Positions 5,715-21,411 of a stretch of 64,000 bases of DNA are shown piece after piece. The notes under the pieces are model-generated. The model did no database searches. It saw only the letters and a list, made by a program, of their open reading frames with translations, and had not been told where the DNA came from. Numbering within the stretch: position 1 is the stretch's first letter; every line of letters begins with the position of its first letter. A program made the translations under genes and the position numbers. Origin of the DNA: Nakamurella alba (lineage in GTDB: Bacteria; Actinomycetota; Actinomycetes; Mycobacteriales; Nakamurellaceae); assembly GCF_009707545.1 (NCBI RefSeq), contig NZ_WLYK01000001.1, forward strand, positions 1,364,001 through 1,428,000, read 5' to 3'.

Positions 5715-7127
5715 GTGCGCACCACGGACGAGACCCCCGACCCGATGACCGTGCCGGCCGCCCATCCGGTGGCCCGGCCCGTCGACCAGGCCCTGCGACT
5801 GCTCACCACCAGCGCGAACCATGGCGTGCTGTGGTTCGGAGTGGCGGCGATCGGGGCGCTGACCGGCAAGCGCGGGCGGCGGGCGGCGCTGCGTGGCGTC
5901 GGATCGTTGGCCGTGTCCAGCTTCCTGTCCAACACCGTGATCAAGCCGCTGGTCGGCCGCCGCCGGCCGGACATCGAACGCACCGTCACCGCCCGCCGGA
6001 TCGGCAAGACCCCGTGGACCTCGTCGTTCCCGAGCGGGCACTCGGCCTCCGCCGCCGCCTTCGCCACCGGCGCGGCGCTGGAGATGCCGGCGGCGCTGCC
6101 GGTGCTCGCCCCGCTCGCCGCAGCGGTGGCGTACTCGCGGGTGCACGTCGGCGTGCACTACCGCTCGGACGTGATCACCGGCGCGGCCATCGGCGTCGCC
6201 GTGGCGCTGGCCGGTCGCTGGCTGTGGCCGGTGAAGCCGTGGGGCCCGGCGAACACCGCTCCCGCTGACGCGCCGGCGCTGTCGGAGGGCGAAGGCCTGA
6301 CCATCGTGCTCAACGAGAAGTCCGGCAGCAGCGACGGTGCCGAGGACGAGCTGTCAGCGGCGCTGCCGAAGGCGCGGATCGTGCAGTGGGATCCGGAGAA
6401 CCAGTCGCTCGAGGACGCCATTGGCACCGGGATGAAGGCGCTCGGCGTGGCCGGCGGCGACGGCACCGTGGCATCGGTGGCGACGATCGCCCAGGAGCGC
6501 GGGCTGCCGTTGGCGGTCTTCCCGTTCGGCACCCTCAACCACTTCGCCGGTGCGCTCGGGCTCAACACCCACGCCCAGGCGATCGACGCGGTCGAGGCCG
6601 GCACCGCGGGCGGGGTGGACATCGCCCGGATCAACGGCGACCTGTTCCTCAACACCGCGAGCATCGGGGGCTACCCGGACATGGTCATCCGCCGCGACCG
6701 GTACACGAAGCGAATGGGGAAGTGGCCGGCCACCGCGCTGGCGCTGATCCGCACCCTGCGCCGGCACACGCCGATGGACCTGGAGATCAACGGCCACCGG
6801 GCACCGGTGTGGGTGGTGTTCGTCGGCAACGGCGTCTACCGGCCGCGCGGGCTGGCCCCGGCGTGGCGGGAGGACCTGGTCGACGGCCTGCTCGACGTCC
6901 AGTACCTGCGCGCAGACAAGAAGCTCGCCCGCACCCGCGGCGTCATCTACTCGCTGATCGGCATGGTCGAGCGCAGCACGGTCTTCCACGCGGTCGACGC
7001 GGAGAAGGTGACGATCATCGCGCACGGCGGTCCGGAGATCCCGGCCCACGACGGCGAGGTCGGCGAGGCCTCCACCACCATCACCTTCGAGGTCGATCCG
7101 GAGCTGCTGACGGTCTACCGGCCGTGA
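5715..7127 (+). CDS. PAP2 phosphatase fused to diacylglycerol/sphingosine kinase-like domain
   Basis: A 470-residue two-domain protein. The N-terminal PAP2 domain has all three phosphatase motifs: [19 protein letters not shown] and [13 protein letters not shown], with several hydrophobic helices. From about residue 195 a DAGK-type catalytic domain follows, with [12 protein letters not shown] (ATP loop) and [10 protein letters not shown], then the beta-rich C-terminal half ([11 protein letters not shown]). The fusion suggests removal and addition of phosphate on lipid head groups at the membrane, but the substrate is not known. GTG 5715 is preferred because of the -10 element just upstream. 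Its stop overlaps the acyP start (GTGA), indicating translational coupling. Confidence 0.88.
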
Positions 7128-7462
7128 GCGAGGAATCGGTCGGCGGGACTGCCCAGCAGGAACCGGCCGACGACGGCGGCGGAGAGCCCGCCGCGGTCGT
7201 CCGGCTCACCGCCTTCGTCGCCGGTCGTGTGCAGGGCGTCGGCTTCCGCTGGTGGACCAGGGCGCGGGCTCTGGAGCTCGGTTTGACCGGCAGCGCAACG
7301 AATCTCGCCGATCGCCGGGTGCAGGTGGTCGCCGAGGGGTCACGTGAGGCCTGCGAGGCGCTGCTCGATCTTCTCCGCGGCGGCGCCACCCCCGGCACGG
7401 TCGACCACGTCGCCGAGCAGTGGGGCAATGCCCGCGGTGAGATCGGCTTCCTCGAGCGCTGA
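7124..7462 (+). CDS. acyP: Acylphosphatase
   Basis: A 112-residue protein that hydrolyses acyl-phosphate bonds. Starts at GTG 7124, overlapping the preceding stop by 4 bases. The first 25 residues are an acidic, Gly-rich extension not found in most acylphosphatases. The domain proper begins [20 protein letters not shown], containing the catalytic Arg loop GRVQGVGFR, and [16 protein letters not shown] supplies the catalytic Asn. acyP next to smc is a common actinobacterial order; here a repeat array and one gene lie between them. Confidence 0.9.
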
Positions 7463-7488
7463 TCTCCGTCCCCGGCGCGAACAACCGA

Positions 7489-7781
7489 ATCCGGGACCGT
7501 TTCCATTGCCACGCAATGGTTTCGGTCCCGGATCCGGCCCTCGGCGACCAGCCCGCCTACCGGGTCGGCTGGCCTTTCAGGCGGCGTGGCTGTTCGGCCC
7601 CAGGGCGACCGAATCCGGGACTGTTTCCATTGCCACGCAATGGTTTCGGTCCCGGATCTGAGCGCTCGGCAACAGGTCTCCCCTCCCGGCCCGCCCCTTC
7701 CGGGTGCAGTTGGCGGTTCGACCCCAGAATGACCGAATCCGGGATCGTTTCCATTGCCACGCAACGGTTTCGGTCCCGGAT
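7489..7781. repeat. Three-copy hairpin array with 124-bp period
   Basis: Three nearly identical 45-base imperfect palindromes lie at 7489-7533, 7613-7657 and 7737-7781, exactly 124 bases apart. Each has 21-base arms that start ATCCGGGACCG and end CCATTGC, a 3-base CAC loop, and an internal 3/3 TTT-TTT mismatch. Copy 2 has one C-to-T change and copy 3 two changes. The two C-to-T changes in the left arms keep G-T pairs on the plus strand; the right-arm change in copy 3 keeps a G-T pair only on the other strand. The 79-base spacers are much less conserved but share TCGGC near the start and CCCCAG near the end. The array fills the 395-base gap between convergent acyP and the NmrA gene; no coding function is seen. 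It may block read-through, but there are no T-runs. Confidence 0.85.
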
Positions 7782-7857
7782 CCGGGCACCCACTCAGCCG
7801 GCGCCGGTCAAGGCGCGGTCGGTCGTTCCCGTACCGAACGGAAACAACCGCAGTGGG

Positions 7858-8715
7858 TCAGGAGGCCACGACCGCCTTGAGGGTGTCGGCGAGGGGGGTG
7901 GTGGGGTGACCGAGGAGGGCGGAGAGATCACCGGTGACGAGCCCGAGCTCGCCCTTGGCGATCGCGGCGTCGACCCCGACGACGAACCCGGCCACACCGT
8001 CCGGCAGTCCGGCGGCGACCAGTGCGGCCTGCTGCTCGGCGCCCGAGACCTGCTGTACCGCAACAGGCTTGCCGGTGACCTCGGCAATGGTGGCGGCGAG
8101 CTCGTCCTGGGTCCAGGCGAGGTCACCGGAGAGCTCGTAGGTGCGCCCGGCGTGTCCGTCGGTGGTCAGTACGGCCACCGCGGCACCGGCGTAGTCGGCG
8201 CGGGAGGCACTGGCCACGCGGCCGTCACCGGCGCTGGTCAGCAGCACGCCGGTGGCCGAGGCCTGCTCGACGGTCGGCGCGTAGTTCTCCGAGTACCAGC
8301 CGTTGCGCAGCAGCACGTGCGGCACGCCGACCTCGGCCAGGTACGCCTCGGTCTGCTGGTGCTCCGGCGCGACCGGGTTGATCGACCCGGTGGCGGACAG
8401 CACGCTGGTGTAAGCGATCAGCGAGGCGCCACCCGCAACCGCTGCGTCGATCAGCCGGCGGTGCTGCTCGAACCTGCGGCCCACGGCGCTGCCGGAGATC
8501 AGCAGGAAGCGATCGGCATCGGCCAACGCGGCGGTGACCGCGGGCGCATCGTCGTAGTCCGCGACCCGGACGGTGACACCGCGGGCCGCCAGCTCGGCGC
8601 CGCGCTCGTCGGTACGGACCAGGGCGATGACGTCGGCCGCAGGGACGGTGTCCAGCAGCCCGTCGATCACAGCGGCACCCAACTGGCCGGCGGCGCCGGC
8701 GATGGTGATGGTCAT
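7858..8715 (-). CDS. NmrA-like NAD(P)-dependent reductase (quinone oxidoreductase 2 type)
   Basis: A 285-residue atypical short-chain dehydrogenase. It starts at ATG 8715 with AAGGAG 8 bases upstream; a long in-frame extension towards smc is an antisense artefact. MTITIAGAAGQLGAAV carries the GxxGxxG dinucleotide-binding motif at residues 7-13. FLLISGSAVGRRFEQHRRLIDAA and YTSVLSATGS fit QorB/YtfG-type NAD(P)H:quinone oxidoreductases, which lack the classical YxxxK pair. SENYAPTVEQASATG is in the usual substrate region. Substrate unknown. It is transcribed divergently from smc. Confidence 0.85.
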   Translation of the reverse strand: MTITIAGAAGQLGAAVIDGLLDTVPAADVIALVRTDERGAELAARGVTVRVADYDDAPAVTAALADADRFLLISGSAVGRRFEQHRRLIDAAVAGGASLIAYTSVLSATGSINPVAPEHQQTEAYLAEVGVPHVLLRNGWYSENYAPTVEQASATGVLLTSAGDGRVASASRADYAGAAVAVLTTDGHAGRTYELSGDLAWTQDELAATIAEVTGKPVAVQQVSGAEQQAALVAAGLPDGVAGFVVGVDAAIAKGELGLVTGDLSALLGHPTTPLADTLKAVVAS

Positions 8716-8847
8716 GGTGGCAACTCCTTCACGACGCGCACCCGCGGGATGCGGGCCGTTCGGTACTTGAAAGCGCAAGCAACGTCGGAGGTATTCCGGT
8801 CCCGCCGACCGCATCGTGTGACGAATCGGACGCCCACCGTCGGCGGG

Positions 8848-8853
8848 TAGGCT
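8848..8853 (+). promoter_or_regulatory. -10 element for smc
   Basis: TAGGCT would give a leader of about 58 bases to GTG 8918. A short palindrome with GACCGG/CCGGTC arms at 8862-8880 lies in this leader and could fold as a hairpin. Confidence 0.4.
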
Positions 8854-8917
8854 CCACGGGCGACCGGCACGTGACCGGTCGGTGAACCATGCCGGCGAAC
8901 GGGAGGGACGGGCAGCT

Positions 8918-11900
8918 GTGTACCTGAAGTCCCTCACTCTCAAGGGCTTCAAGTCCTTTGCCTCGTCCACCACGCTGCGGTTCGAGAAGGGCATCACCGC
9001 CGTCGTCGGACCCAACGGGTCAGGTAAGTCCAACGTCGTCGACGCCATCGCCTGGGTGCTGGGCGAGCAGGGCGCGAAGGCGCTGCGCGGCGGCAAGATG
9101 GAGGACGTCATCTTCGCCGGCACGGCGGACCGGCCTCCGCTCGGCCGCGCCGAGGTCACCCTGACCATCGACAACGCCGACGGCGCCCTGCCCATCGAGT
9201 ACGCCGAGGTCTCGATCACCCGCCGGATGTTCCGGGACGGCGGCGGCGAGTACGAGATCAACGGGTCGACCTGCCGCCTGCTCGACATCCAGGAACTGCT
9301 GTCCGATTCCGGTATCGGCCGCGAGATGCACGTCATCGTCGGCCAGGGGCAGCTGGACGCGGTGCTGTCCGCGCGGCCAGAGGACCGGCGGGCGTTCATC
9401 GAGGAGGCCGCCGGCGTCCTCAAGCACCGCAAGCGCAAGGAGAAGGCGCTCCGCAAGCTCGATGCGATGCAGGCGAACCTGACCCGGCTGTCCGACCTGA
9501 CCGGGGAACTGCGTCGCCAGCTCAAGCCGCTCGGCCGGCAGGCCGAGGTGGCGCGGCGCGCGGCCGGGGTGCAGGCCGACCTACGGGACGCCCGGGCCCG
9601 GCTGCTCGCGGACGACCTCGCCAACCTGATCCGGACCCTGGAGCAGGAGGCGCGCGACGAGCAGGCCGCGCAGGAGAACCGGACGCGGGTGCAGCGGCTG
9701 CTGGCGGAGGTGACCGCGGAGACGGAGGTGTCCGCCGAGGCCGTCGCTGCGGCGACGCCGGCGCTGGACGAGGCGCAGGAGACCTGGTTCGGGCTGTCCT
9801 CGCTGGCCGAGCGGTACCGCGGCACGATCTCCCTGGCCGAGGAGCGCGCCCGCAACCTCTCGGCGCCGACCGGTCCGGTCGGGACCGGCCGGGATCCGGA
9901 GGAACTGGAGGCGGCGGCCGAGGAGGCCGAGCAGGACCAGATCGAGAAGCAGGAGCTGGTCGAGGAAGCGCGCGAGCAGCTCGCATCCGCCGTGGCCGAG
10001 CGCACCGAGTCCGAGCAGGAGCTGCGCGCCGCCGAGCAGGAACTGATGACCGCCACCCGGGCGATCGCCGACCGCCGCGAGGGGTTGGCCCGACTGTCCG
10101 GTCAGGTCAACGCGGTGCGGTCGCGGCTCGCCGCGTCCGGTGACGAGGTCGCCCGGCTGGCGGCCGCGGTGGCGGACGCCCGGCGGCGGGCCGGCGAGGC
10201 GCAGACCGAGTTCGACACCCTGCAGGGATCCGTCGGCGAACTGGATGCGGGCGAGGTCGACCTCGACGAAGCGCACGAGGCCGCCGAGGCGGCGGTGGAC
10301 ACCGCAGTCGCCCGGGTCACCGAACTCACCGAGTCGCTGCGGGCCGCCCGCACCACGCAGACCGGCCTACGCGCCCGCGCCGAGGCGTTGTCCCTCGGAC
10401 TCGACCGGAAGGACGCGGCCGGTGCGCTGCTCGCGGCCGGCGACGGCGTGCACGGTGTGCTGGGGTCGCTGTCCTCCCTGTTGGACATCACCCCGGGCGC
10501 GGAGGCCGCGGTGGCCGGTGCGCTCGGCCGGTTCGCCGACGCGATCGCCGTCGCCGGTTTGGACGATGCGGTCGGGGCGGTGCGCTGGCTGCAGGAGCAC
10601 GACGGCGGTCGTGCACCGCTGGTGATCGGCGGCGCCCCTGACCTCGCGTCCGGTGGCACCCTGCCCGACACTGCGCGCTGGGCCGTCGATCTCGTGACGG
10701 CTCCGACCGAACTGCGGAACGCCGTCGGTCGGTTGCTCGCCGGCGTCGTCGTCACCGACGACCTGGAGTCGGCCCGGCGGCTGATCGCCGAACGTCCCGA
10801 TCTGCGGGCCGTCACCACCACCGGTGATGTGCTGGGCGGCGCCTGGGCGGACGGCGGCAGCACCGGCAAGCAGTCGGTGCTGGAGATCCAGGCGACGCTG
10901 GATCGTGCCGAGCAGGAGCTTGCCGAGATCACCGGCACCATCGGCGGTCTCGAAGCTGCGCTGGCCGGCGCGAAGCAGGAGGCACAGTCCCGGGCGGCGC
11001 ACGCGGAGACCACGCTGAGCGCTCTGCACGAGTCGGACGCGTCGCTGTCGGCGGTGGGGGAGCAGCTCGGTCGGCTCGGCGGTGCGGTCCGGTCGGCGAC
11101 GGCGGAGGCCGACCGGCTGGACAAGCAGCGGCAGGCGGCCGAGGACGGCCGCGAACAGCACCGACAGTCGTTGGACGACCTGGAATCCCGGCTGCACGCC
11201 GCCGAGGACGAGGAGTCGCCGGAGGAGATCGACTCGTCGGTCCGGGACGATCTGCAGGAGCGGACCGCCGCCACCCGGCAGGTCGAGGTCGACGCCCGGC
11301 TGACGCTGCGATCAGCGGAGGAACGCGCCCGCTCGACCGCGGGCACCGCCGAGAACCTGCGCCGGGCCGCCGCCCAGGAGCGGCAGGCCCGGGAGCGGGC
11401 CGAGGCTGCCGCCCGGCGCCGGGCGGCCGGGGCGGAGCTGGCCGGCCGGGTGGTCGAACTGGGTCACCGGGCGACCGCGGCGCTGGAGCGGGCACTGGTC
11501 GACGCCGGTACCGCGCGGGAGCAGGCCACCGCTGCCCGGTCCGCCGCGGACGCGGCCCTGGCCGATGCCCGTCGGCGGGCCGCCGAGCTGCAGAAGGAGT
11601 GGGACGCACTCACCGACGCCGTGCACCGCGACGAGGTGCAGCGCACCCAGCAGACCCTGCGCGTCCAGCAGCTGGCTGAGAAGGCCGTGTCCGACGTTGG
11701 TCTCGGCGTCGCTGAGCTGGTCGCCGAGTACGGCCCGGACGTCCCGGTGCCGCCGTCACCGGCCGAGATGGCCGAGTACGAGGCGGCGAAGGAACGCGGC
11801 GAGGAGGTCAGCCGGCCGCAGCCGGCACCGTTCGACCGCGGCACCCAGGAGCGGCGGCTCAAGCGGGCGGAGAAGGACCTGACCCTGCTGGGCAAGGTCA

Positions 11901-12529
11901 ACCCGCTGGCACTGGAGGAGTTCGCGGCGCTGGAGGAGCGGCACAGCTTCCTGGCCACCCAGCTCGAGGACCTGAAGTCGACCCGCAAGGATCTGCTCAC
12001 CGTGGTCACGGAGGTCGACGAGAAGATCCTGGAGATCTTCACCTCGGCCTACCACGACGTCGCGCGCGAGTTCGTGACGGTGTTCGCGACGCTGTTCCCC
12101 GGCGGCGACGGCGAACTGGTGCTGACCAACCCCGACGACATGCTGACCACCGGCATCGAGGTCAACGCCCGCCCGCCGGGCAAGAAGGTGAAGCGGCTGT
12201 CGCTGCTGTCCGGTGGCGAGCGGTCGCTGACCGCGGTCGCCATGCTGGTGGCCATCTTCCGCGCCCGGCCCAGCCCGTTCTACATCATGGACGAGGTCGA
12301 GGCGGCGCTGGACGAGGTCAACCTGACCCGGCTGGTCGGCCTGCTCACCGAGCTCCGCGACTCCTCCCAGCTGATCATCATCACCCACCAGAAGTTCACG
12401 ATGGAGTCGGCCGACGCGCTCTACGGCGTCTCCATGCGCGGCGACGGCATCACGCAGGTGATCAGCCAGCGGATCCGCGGTGTGGTGGAGAAGGTCGAGC
12501 CGGTGCCGGAGCCCGCCGCCGGCGGCTGA
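8918..12529 (+). CDS. smc: Chromosome partition protein SMC
   Basis: A 1203-residue SMC ATPase for chromosome compaction and segregation with ScpA/ScpB. GTG 8918 is chosen because YLKSLTLKGFKSFA is the conserved actinobacterial N-terminus and GGAGG lies upstream. Walker A GPNGSGKSN is at residues 31-39. Two long coiled-coil arms flank a hinge in the middle third (AAGDGVHGVLGSLSSLLDI to VVTDDLESARRL). The C-terminal head has the ABC signature LLSGGERSLTAVAM, Walker B FYIMDEVEAALD and a final HQKFTMESAD switch region. ftsY, which commonly follows smc, is absent here. Confidence 0.98.
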   Translation: MYLKSLTLKGFKSFASSTTLRFEKGITAVVGPNGSGKSNVVDAIAWVLGEQGAKALRGGKMEDVIFAGTADRPPLGRAEVTLTIDNADGALPIEYAEVSITRRMFRDGGGEYEINGSTCRLLDIQELLSDSGIGREMHVIVGQGQLDAVLSARPEDRRAFIEEAAGVLKHRKRKEKALRKLDAMQANLTRLSDLTGELRRQLKPLGRQAEVARRAAGVQADLRDARARLLADDLANLIRTLEQEARDEQAAQENRTRVQRLLAEVTAETEVSAEAVAAATPALDEAQETWFGLSSLAERYRGTISLAEERARNLSAPTGPVGTGRDPEELEAAAEEAEQDQIEKQELVEEAREQLASAVAERTESEQELRAAEQELMTATRAIADRREGLARLSGQVNAVRSRLAASGDEVARLAAAVADARRRAGEAQTEFDTLQGSVGELDAGEVDLDEAHEAAEAAVDTAVARVTELTESLRAARTTQTGLRARAEALSLGLDRKDAAGALLAAGDGVHGVLGSLSSLLDITPGAEAAVAGALGRFADAIAVAGLDDAVGAVRWLQEHDGGRAPLVIGGAPDLASGGTLPDTARWAVDLVTAPTELRNAVGRLLAGVVVTDDLESARRLIAERPDLRAVTTTGDVLGGAWADGGSTGKQSVLEIQATLDRAEQELAEITGTIGGLEAALAGAKQEAQSRAAHAETTLSALHESDASLSAVGEQLGRLGGAVRSATAEADRLDKQRQAAEDGREQHRQSLDDLESRLHAAEDEESPEEIDSSVRDDLQERTAATRQVEVDARLTLRSAEERARSTAGTAENLRRAAAQERQARERAEAAARRRAAGAELAGRVVELGHRATAALERALVDAGTAREQATAARSAADAALADARRRAAELQKEWDALTDAVHRDEVQRTQQTLRVQQLAEKAVSDVGLGVAELVAEYGPDVPVPPSPAEMAEYEAAKERGEEVSRPQPAPFDRGTQERRLKRAEKDLTLLGKVNPLALEEFAALEERHSFLATQLEDLKSTRKDLLTVVTEVDEKILEIFTSAYHDVAREFVTVFATLFPGGDGELVLTNPDDMLTTGIEVNARPPGKKVKRLSLLSGGERSLTAVAMLVAIFRARPSPFYIMDEVEAALDEVNLTRLVGLLTELRDSSQLIIITHQKFTMESADALYGVSMRGDGITQVISQRIRGVVEKVEPVPEPAAGG

Positions 12530-18488: not shown

Positions 18489-18501
18489 CCGCACCTCCCT
18501 G

Positions 18502-18769
18502 GGCGCGAGGATCAAAGTCCTCGACGCGTGTGAAGGTGCCGTCTTTGGGGCGGATGTGACAGGCGTCAACACTTTCGTACGCGCGGCCGGGCTCGACGCT
18601 GCGCCCAAGCCTGAAGCGCCGCATGAGAGCCCTCCCACAGTGACGACCTGCTGTCACTGCCAGGCCGAGGTGCTCCGACACCGGCTGCGCGCAGGAAGTT
18701 GTCGCCGTTGGGACTGATGGGACAGTCGTCAACAACTTCGTGCGCGTCGAGGAAGTTGATCCTCGCGCC
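18502..18769. repeat. 268-bp composite inverted-repeat element (MITE-like)
   Basis: Terminal inverted repeats of 27 bases (18502-18528 and 18743-18769) match at 25 of 27 positions, and each arm can itself fold (CGCGAGGA with TCCTCG plus a one-base bulge). Inside, two related segments of about 55 bases (near 18529-18588 and 18690-18742) repeat in direct orientation, sharing GACAG-CGTCAACA and CTTCGT-like cores, and each can form a hairpin from GAAG..TG and CA..CTTC. A small AGTGAC/GTCACT hairpin sits in the centre (18639-18658). No open frame is convincing. It occupies the gap between the convergent RDD and DUF4191 genes. Confidence 0.75.
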
Positions 18770-18785
18770 GGGTGGGGGCGGGGTG

Positions 18786-20569: not shown

Positions 20570-21411
20570 TTGCTGTCGCTCGCCTTCGGCGCGGCGGTGC
20601 GGGTGCGGGGGGCCGGCTTCGGCTTGGCGGCCTCGGCGGCGTCCTTCGCATCCGCGGCCGCGTCCTTGACATCGTCCGCGGCGTCCTTCAGGTCGTCGAC
20701 CTTGTCGGCCACGGCGTCCTTGACGTCCTCGACCTTGTCCGCCACCGCCTCCTTGACGTCCTCGACCTTGTCCGCCACCGCGTCCTTGACCTCGGCGGTC
20801 TTATCGACGACGGCGTCCTTCACCTCGGCGGCCTTCTCGACCACCGCGTCCTTCACCTCGGCGACCTTCTCCGCCACCGGCTTGGCCGGGGTGGTCGGCG
20901 CCGGGCGGGTCTCCGGTGCCGGCGGGGTGGGCGAGCGCAGGAACTTCACGGCCGCCGCGACGCCACCGGCCAGCGCGCCGAGCAGCAGGATGTTGCGCAC
21001 CGGGTGCTTCTTTTTGCCGGCCTTCTTCGCGGCCTTGTCGGCGAGCTTCGCGGCCTTGCGGTCGGCCTCGTGCGCGGCCGCAGCGGCCTTCGCGGCGACC
21101 ACGGCGGCACCGGCGAGGGCGCTCTTCTTCGCCGACGCGGTGCCCTTGGTGATCGAGTCCTGGGCCTTGGCCGAGCCCTTGGCCAGCGACTTCTGCGCAC
21201 GCTTCGCAGCCTTGGCGCGGGCCTTGCGGGTGCGGCGGTTCAGCTTCTCCGCCACTTCACCGGCCTTCTCGGCGACGTCGTGGGCGGCCCCGGTGGCGAA
21301 GGTCGCGACCTTGCCGGCGACCTCGGTGGCCTGGTCGGCGACCTTCTCCGCCACCTTCTCGGCCTTCTCCGCCAGATCGTGGGCGGCCGAACCGGCCGTC
21401 GTCTTGCTCAT
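20566..21411 (-). CDS. Lys/Ala-rich membrane protein with 11-residue LEA-like repeats
   Basis: A 281-residue low-complexity protein. ATG 21411 has GAGGAG 7 bases upstream; an in-frame upstream start at 21522 would add a QQDQRA-repeat leader without a ribosome site. Residues 11-136 are Ala/Lys/Glu-rich helix, turning strongly basic ([14 protein letters not shown]). Residues 140-158 form one membrane helix ([19 protein letters not shown]). A Pro-rich linker follows, then six 11-residue units of the type (D/E)K-V/A-x-EVKDAV-x at residues 181-246, like LEA group 3 or apolipoprotein amphipathic helices. Not recognised as a named family. Coupled to lipA by an ATGA overlap. Confidence 0.7.

Follow-up and report, generated by a model that had tools for sequence, protein, structure and literature searches.

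The three near-identical palindromes lying between two convergent genes of Nakamurella alba very probably belong to a species-specific family of untagged REP-like palindromic repeats that spread in trans, was duplicated in tandem and is held by its sequence. They were found in a window of 64,000 nucleotides, the whole stretch of DNA analysed here (C1:1364001-1428000; the genome amounts to 6.05 Mb over 29 contigs). The repeat family is new, and its kind is already known, going by what PMC3733652 says of untagged REP-like repeats. A well-delimited palindrome family that is specific to one species, in a genome with no Y1 transposase detected, provides a clean setting for questions on the spread and retention of repeats. 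Moreover, in some tandem copies the palindrome has persisted as the spacers decayed, which makes them a good case for asking what maintains such repeats.

The palindrome in the window and across the genome

In the window, the 45-bp cores of the three copies lie on the plus strand at 7489-7533, 7613-7657 and 7737-7781, and each was located by sequence, fold and covariance-model match. The start-to-start distances are 124 and 124, with 79-bp spacers at 7534-7612 and 7658-7736, so the exact 124-bp period between convergent genes described in the initial annotation was confirmed. With their flanks, the copies span 53 columns (7485-7537 for copy 1, the other two extended likewise) and are identical at 48-51 of them. 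The acylphosphatase gene (PF00708; 7124-7462, plus strand) ends 26 bp ahead of the core of copy 1, and converges with an NmrA-like NAD(P)-binding gene (PF05368; 7858-8715, minus strand); the array sits on the acylphosphatase side of the latter. The next gene on the plus strand (8918-12529) is presumably smc, a name that comes from recall of the sequence and not from a family search.

The two spacers have diverged, with 32/71 identical positions in an ungapped comparison of the bases outside the 53 columns. Their homology depends on gapped alignments, which gave 68% identity against 61-63% for the top of 60 shuffles; the final 25 or so bases of spacer 2 resemble those preceding copy 2. The palindromes are better conserved than these spacers of equal length, as had been proposed: 50/53 positions were kept versus about 48/71 (Fisher P 0.0003), the latter count being back-computed from the 68% of the gapped alignment.

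The palindromes of the window are not due to chance. A 24-letter core searched with up to three mismatches gave 45 hits in the genome, corresponding to 42 places (three matched on both strands), and the reversed control pattern gave none. With 37 copies as its input alignment, a covariance model retrieved 100 matches over both strands that represent 52 sites in 29 intergenic regions, including 15 sites found by the model itself; this number is a lower bound, with 150 of 12210 first-look candidates scored. The 29 loci comprise 17 single copies and 12 arrays of two to five copies. Using a simple codon-usage caller for the genes, 51 of the 52 sites had no gene-call overlap above 20 bp, and the other one overlaps a doubtful 149-codon ORF. 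Thus, the search for further copies that had been recommended was productive, with 52 copies or more, spread over 29 intergenic regions and enriched between convergent genes; neither the covariation nor the fixed period expected across copies was found.

The repeated unit is of about 45 bp, ATCSGGGACCGTTTCCRTCG-N5-CGAYGGTTTCGGTCCCSGAT. Over the 29 loci, conservation sets in at column 4 of the 53-mer and ends at column 51, each time over a few bases, and these sharp edges indicate a discrete unit; the printed columns outside them hold at most 0.27 bits of information. The flanks are unrelated between loci. The loci themselves are clustered, since 16/29 lie within 25 kb of another when 5.7 were expected (P 0.0004, with unlisted contigs modelled as equal in size).

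Spread, relatives and known repeat classes

REP-like repeats are often attributed to RAYT transposases. In this case, the unit would have spread as a discrete piece by means of a trans-acting enzyme, and this enzyme would not be a Y1/RAYT transposase of the kind detectable with PF01797, because none was found in the genome: the search gave no match there, and a control search was positive in 5 of 14 named genomes. The sole Y1 match among the 17 genus genomes (G007:C9:135685-135969, stretch L153) carries an internal stop. With none detected in its own genome and one broken match in the genus, we rejected RAYT as the mobiliser. A segment of contig C8 (59.7-62.5 kb) between inverted arrays had a RAYT-like layout; it holds two alcohol dehydrogenases.

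Other mobile origins were also considered. No target-site duplication stood out at the 17 single-copy loci, where the best-scoring candidate was the conserved AT of the core with its neighbours. The arm pattern gave 122 hits in the genome versus 3 for the control. Among the matches listed, all arm hits with up to two mismatches fell within the 52 palindromes except C2:319849, C3:160420 and C5:529795, and there were at least seven lone arms at three mismatches. Lone arms being few among the matches listed, insertion-sequence ends appear unlikely. Integron attC sites were considered and dropped as well. A phage or plasmid origin was rejected, with no viral contig containing the exact core and no plasmid match. 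The exact core was also absent from contigs of other species, in a collection that may omit this genome or near ones.

For the class assignment, the closest kind is that of untagged REP-like repeats, of which families are named for M. tuberculosis, D. radiodurans, Bordetellae, Brucellae and Cyanobacteria in what PMC3733652 lists. Both are short dispersed palindromes with no terminal tag, a likeness drawn from that source's description and not from sequence comparison; the arrays found here have, in addition, a locus-specific period. REPs and BIMEs tagged with GTAG or CGTC are likewise short imperfect intergenic palindromes with a bias towards convergent and unidirectional genes, the same setting as that of the copies in this genome. 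However, tagged REPs come with a RAYT, and here there was no Y1 transposase detected in the genome and no tag: in the 8 nt flanking the core at either end, over the 52 copies, we counted GTAG/CTAC three times and CGTC/GACG three times, so these are not tagged REPs. Regarding numbers, REPs usually exceed 100 copies per genome according to PMC2817692, compared to a lower bound of 52 sites here. BIMEs are described in the same source as regularly spaced REPs of alternating orientation (PMC2817692), whereas each of our 12 arrays keeps a single orientation, so on that description they are not BIMEs.

Two further classes share some features with the family. MITEs are also short, palindromic and non-autonomous, but here no target-site duplication stood out, and the matches listed include few lone arms of the sort that a parent transposon might leave. 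The MIRU/VNTR of mycobacteria are intergenic tandem arrays in an actinobacterium, as in this case; here, however, the conserved part is the 45-bp palindrome, and the spacers diverge.

Among relatives, the core was absent from all 16 congeners at up to three mismatches, a threshold at which a more diverged relative could be missed. Over the genus, the covariance model scored 150 candidates per genome, which leaves the three-mismatch pattern as the basis for calling the core absent from congeners. Our sample of the order included 397 genomes (this one and the 16 congeners among them), and two of the other 380 gave one three-mismatch hit each, with poor arms. The copies elsewhere that the initial annotation had anticipated exist in this genome, with 49 more at 28 other loci, and were not retrieved from congeners.

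At the locus of the window, acylphosphatase and smc were adjacent, in tandem and 118-203 bp apart in 7/13 congener stretches, and none of the 13 had an NmrA match. The simplest account is that the NmrA gene and the array arrived between acylphosphatase and smc in the lineage leading to this species; the ancestral order is uncertain, as the other 6/13 stretches did not show both genes. With the closest congener at 69% identity in the neighbouring protein, the state of this site before insertion was not readable.

Dispersed palindromes of other kinds were found in two congeners, G009 and G010, when sampling 400 kb of each. In G009 there is a 72-bp palindrome (e.g., C1 118123-118194) whose arms gave 32 hits in that genome, one in G012 and none in the other 15. 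It could be suggested, as a generalization that we consider rather unlikely, that the species of Nakamurella each have intergenic palindromes of their own, spread by a non-RAYT mobiliser, and that the 45-bp one would be a dyad recognition site in DNA, kept by sequence and not by fold, which would define a REP-like class with a new enzyme or binding protein. Our literature searches found no title on such palindromic repeats for Nakamurella; for RAYT and actinobacteria, the titles were unrelated among the matches listed, and none was on the 45-bp family.

Array periods and the dyad sequence

The periods of the 12 arrays are locus-specific, from 90 to 239 bp overall: 124/124, 123/126, 166, 151, 239/147/147/147, 118, 131, 174/142, 167, 93 (four times), 90/90/101 and 128. 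They do not share a helical phase (Rayleigh P about 0.5, 15 period values). The initial annotation read the 124 bp as a fixed spacing of about 12 helical turns, and this did not hold for the other arrays. Locus-specific periods with no helical phase are most simply explained by tandem duplication, and the 124-bp period was most likely inherited from a duplication in place, not set as a designed distance. Thus, a regular period need not mean designed spacing.

For the best-match comparison that follows, and for the permutation of pairs and the triplet counts further on, 49 copies were used, omitting C16:38755, C9:310082 and C1:1471684 (indel). The best match lay inside the same array for 27 of the 34 array copies (shuffled mean 5.8%, maximum 23.5%), and the orientation of copies is uniform within each of the 12 arrays. 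Spacers were alignable within several arrays, for example with identities of 79% in C5, 80% at C1:1846748, 93% at C8:62366 and 90-100% among copies 2-5 of C13; for others, such as the arrays of C2 and C17, the spacers were no more similar than shuffles. We suggest that tandem duplication of a palindrome plus its spacer would have turned single copies into arrays on the spot, giving each array its period. Palindromes had no advantage in conservation over spacers in C8:62366-62508 (92% vs. 93%) and in copies 2-5 of C13 (81-92% vs. 90-100% for the alignable spacers), so their stronger conservation is not general, perhaps due to the youth of these arrays. In several arrays, the palindrome outlives the spacers, which would point to a protein that reads the DNA.

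Which protein this would be is where the main alternative comes in. The palindrome could be the site of a sequence-specific host protein, organising the nucleoid or insulating gene ends, with the two arms as dyad half-sites kept for that function; from the sequence features, we regard this as a tentative possibility. The consensus arms share 17/20 letters, and the degenerate positions coincide in both arms and yet vary independently. For instance, columns 8 and 46 take C or G independently (GG 11, CG 11, CC 11 and GC 10 of 49 copies). Both arms have an A/T-rich middle triplet, paired or not. Between tandem genes there is no orientation preference, with the element along the genes in seven or six of 13 loci (C3:260539 scores nearly equally on both strands, so its strand is ambiguous). 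All these features, and palindromes outlasting spacers in several arrays, would fit such a site. However, the loci are clustered, the core was not found in congeners, the spacing has no helical phase, arrays of variable copy number resemble repeat dynamics, and in two arrays the palindromes are no better kept than the spacers.

For the favoured reading, a mobile REP-like repeat, the palindrome would have been held by sequence since its spread, most likely by the mobiliser or a host DNA-binding protein that would read both arms in DNA. Correction between copies may be an alternative cause of its retention.

Gene context, termination and fold

At the 29 loci, the element lies between convergent genes in 15, tandem genes in 13 and divergent genes in one. 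When compared to all intergenic regions of at least 100 bp in the same stretches, it was present in 15/29 convergent, 13/72 tandem and 1/48 divergent ones (Fisher P 2.8e-7 for convergent vs. divergent and 0.0012 for convergent vs. tandem). These stretches were chosen around elements, and two of them (L045 and L046) overlap by 2.3 kb; 400 kb chosen regardless of the element held 16 convergent, 70 tandem and 39 divergent regions. Divergent regions, where promoters lie, are nearly devoid of the element, and copies in promoter regions would have been lost or never kept.

The flanking genes have mixed chromosomal functions (58 proteins scanned, with L045:5091-10001, the 59th, omitted), and a shared function among them was rejected. 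No transposase-named family matched these 58 proteins at E 1e-8, and ten had no match at all. The protein at L052:4409-4861 had HTH_28 and HTH_23 matches only. Such matches can occur in transposase fragments.

A role at gene ends would be that of a bidirectional transcription terminator or a stabiliser of the mRNA 3' ends of the flanking genes, which we find unlikely. The 15/29 convergent loci and the stable hairpins that the window copies form on both strands would agree with it. However, no terminator-like site with a T-run was found in 7100-8900, a search whose scope was terminators with a T-run, and the distances from elements to stop codons vary widely. Moreover, other GC-rich hairpins occurred in 7/15 convergent regions with the element versus 11/20 without it (Fisher P 0.74), a comparison weakened by the greater length of the element regions. 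With these hairpins co-occurring, termination as the main role was disfavoured. The element does not seem to replace a terminator, and it may possibly stop read-through.

The fold could also matter as a structured RNA with a functional internal loop, one of the options raised in the initial annotation; this appears highly improbable. The proposal that the fold itself is under selection found no backing in the variation among copies. The window copies do fold better than dinucleotide shuffles, with z from -4.8 to -6.8 on the plus strand and from -4.7 to -7.5 on the minus strand; among 200 shuffles, one reached copy 3 on the plus strand and none reached the other five cases of copy and strand. 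In 37 copies, pairing was 80% versus 25-49% when the structure was slid by one to three columns, which merely restates the palindrome, as any palindrome would show. In the same copies, 80.1% of the pair cells were standard versus 80.8% with the letters of the 3' arm shuffled, so there was no covariation beyond shuffles. Of 25 pairs tested in 49 copies, with resampling of a single copy from each locus, 22/32 alone exceeded permutation (P 0.025). Invariant pairs argue neither for nor against pairing, and in 45/49 copies one or more of the 17 stem pairs outside the middle triplet are non-standard.

The TTT/TTT internal loop, kept in most copies, and the stable fold would be in favour of such an RNA. 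The triplet was wholly unpaired in 32/49 copies and fully paired in 6/49, which does not support selection on the fold. There was no Rfam match within the window, and the lack of orientation bias between tandem genes also speaks against an RNA. The three substitutions on which selection on the fold was based do leave G-T pairs; however, this holds for every transition within a Watson-Crick pair, on one strand or the other, and the argument is empty. Altogether, the palindrome appears to be conserved as a sequence with twofold symmetry, and a hairpin role, while possible, is not what its variation shows.

A purely local duplication, posed as the sole alternative in the initial annotation, agrees with within-array copies being mostly each other's closest relatives, and the array does resemble a tandem duplication; as a full account it is refuted by the dispersal of the unit, with 49 more copies at 28 other loci, and we give it practically no weight.

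Finally, other repeats were observed in this genome. One is a second family of dispersed palindromes, CAACTTCG...GAAGTTGATCC, intergenic as well, which lies between convergent genes in the window (18489-18785) and is also present in L041:4941-5395 and L042:7830-8271. Its pattern gave 27 hits in this genome, 49 in G010, 77 in G013, 21 in G015, 13 in G009, two in G012 and one in G016, with no hits for the controls; it is a family shared by 7/17 genus genomes, with inner letters typical of each species. Another tandem intergenic repeat present at several loci, with a period of about 73 bp, was seen at L042:4871-5516, L049:4796-5527 and L050:10231-10543, and at L042 and L049 it occupies the same intergenic regions as the 45-bp family. 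The window also contains 33-bp direct repeats in overlapping register (20614-20882) that are probably part of a coding region. Two further candidate families of repeats in the same genome are represented by L047:3936, L043:6850 and L048:5226, and by L049:8302-8721 with L050:6802-7171.
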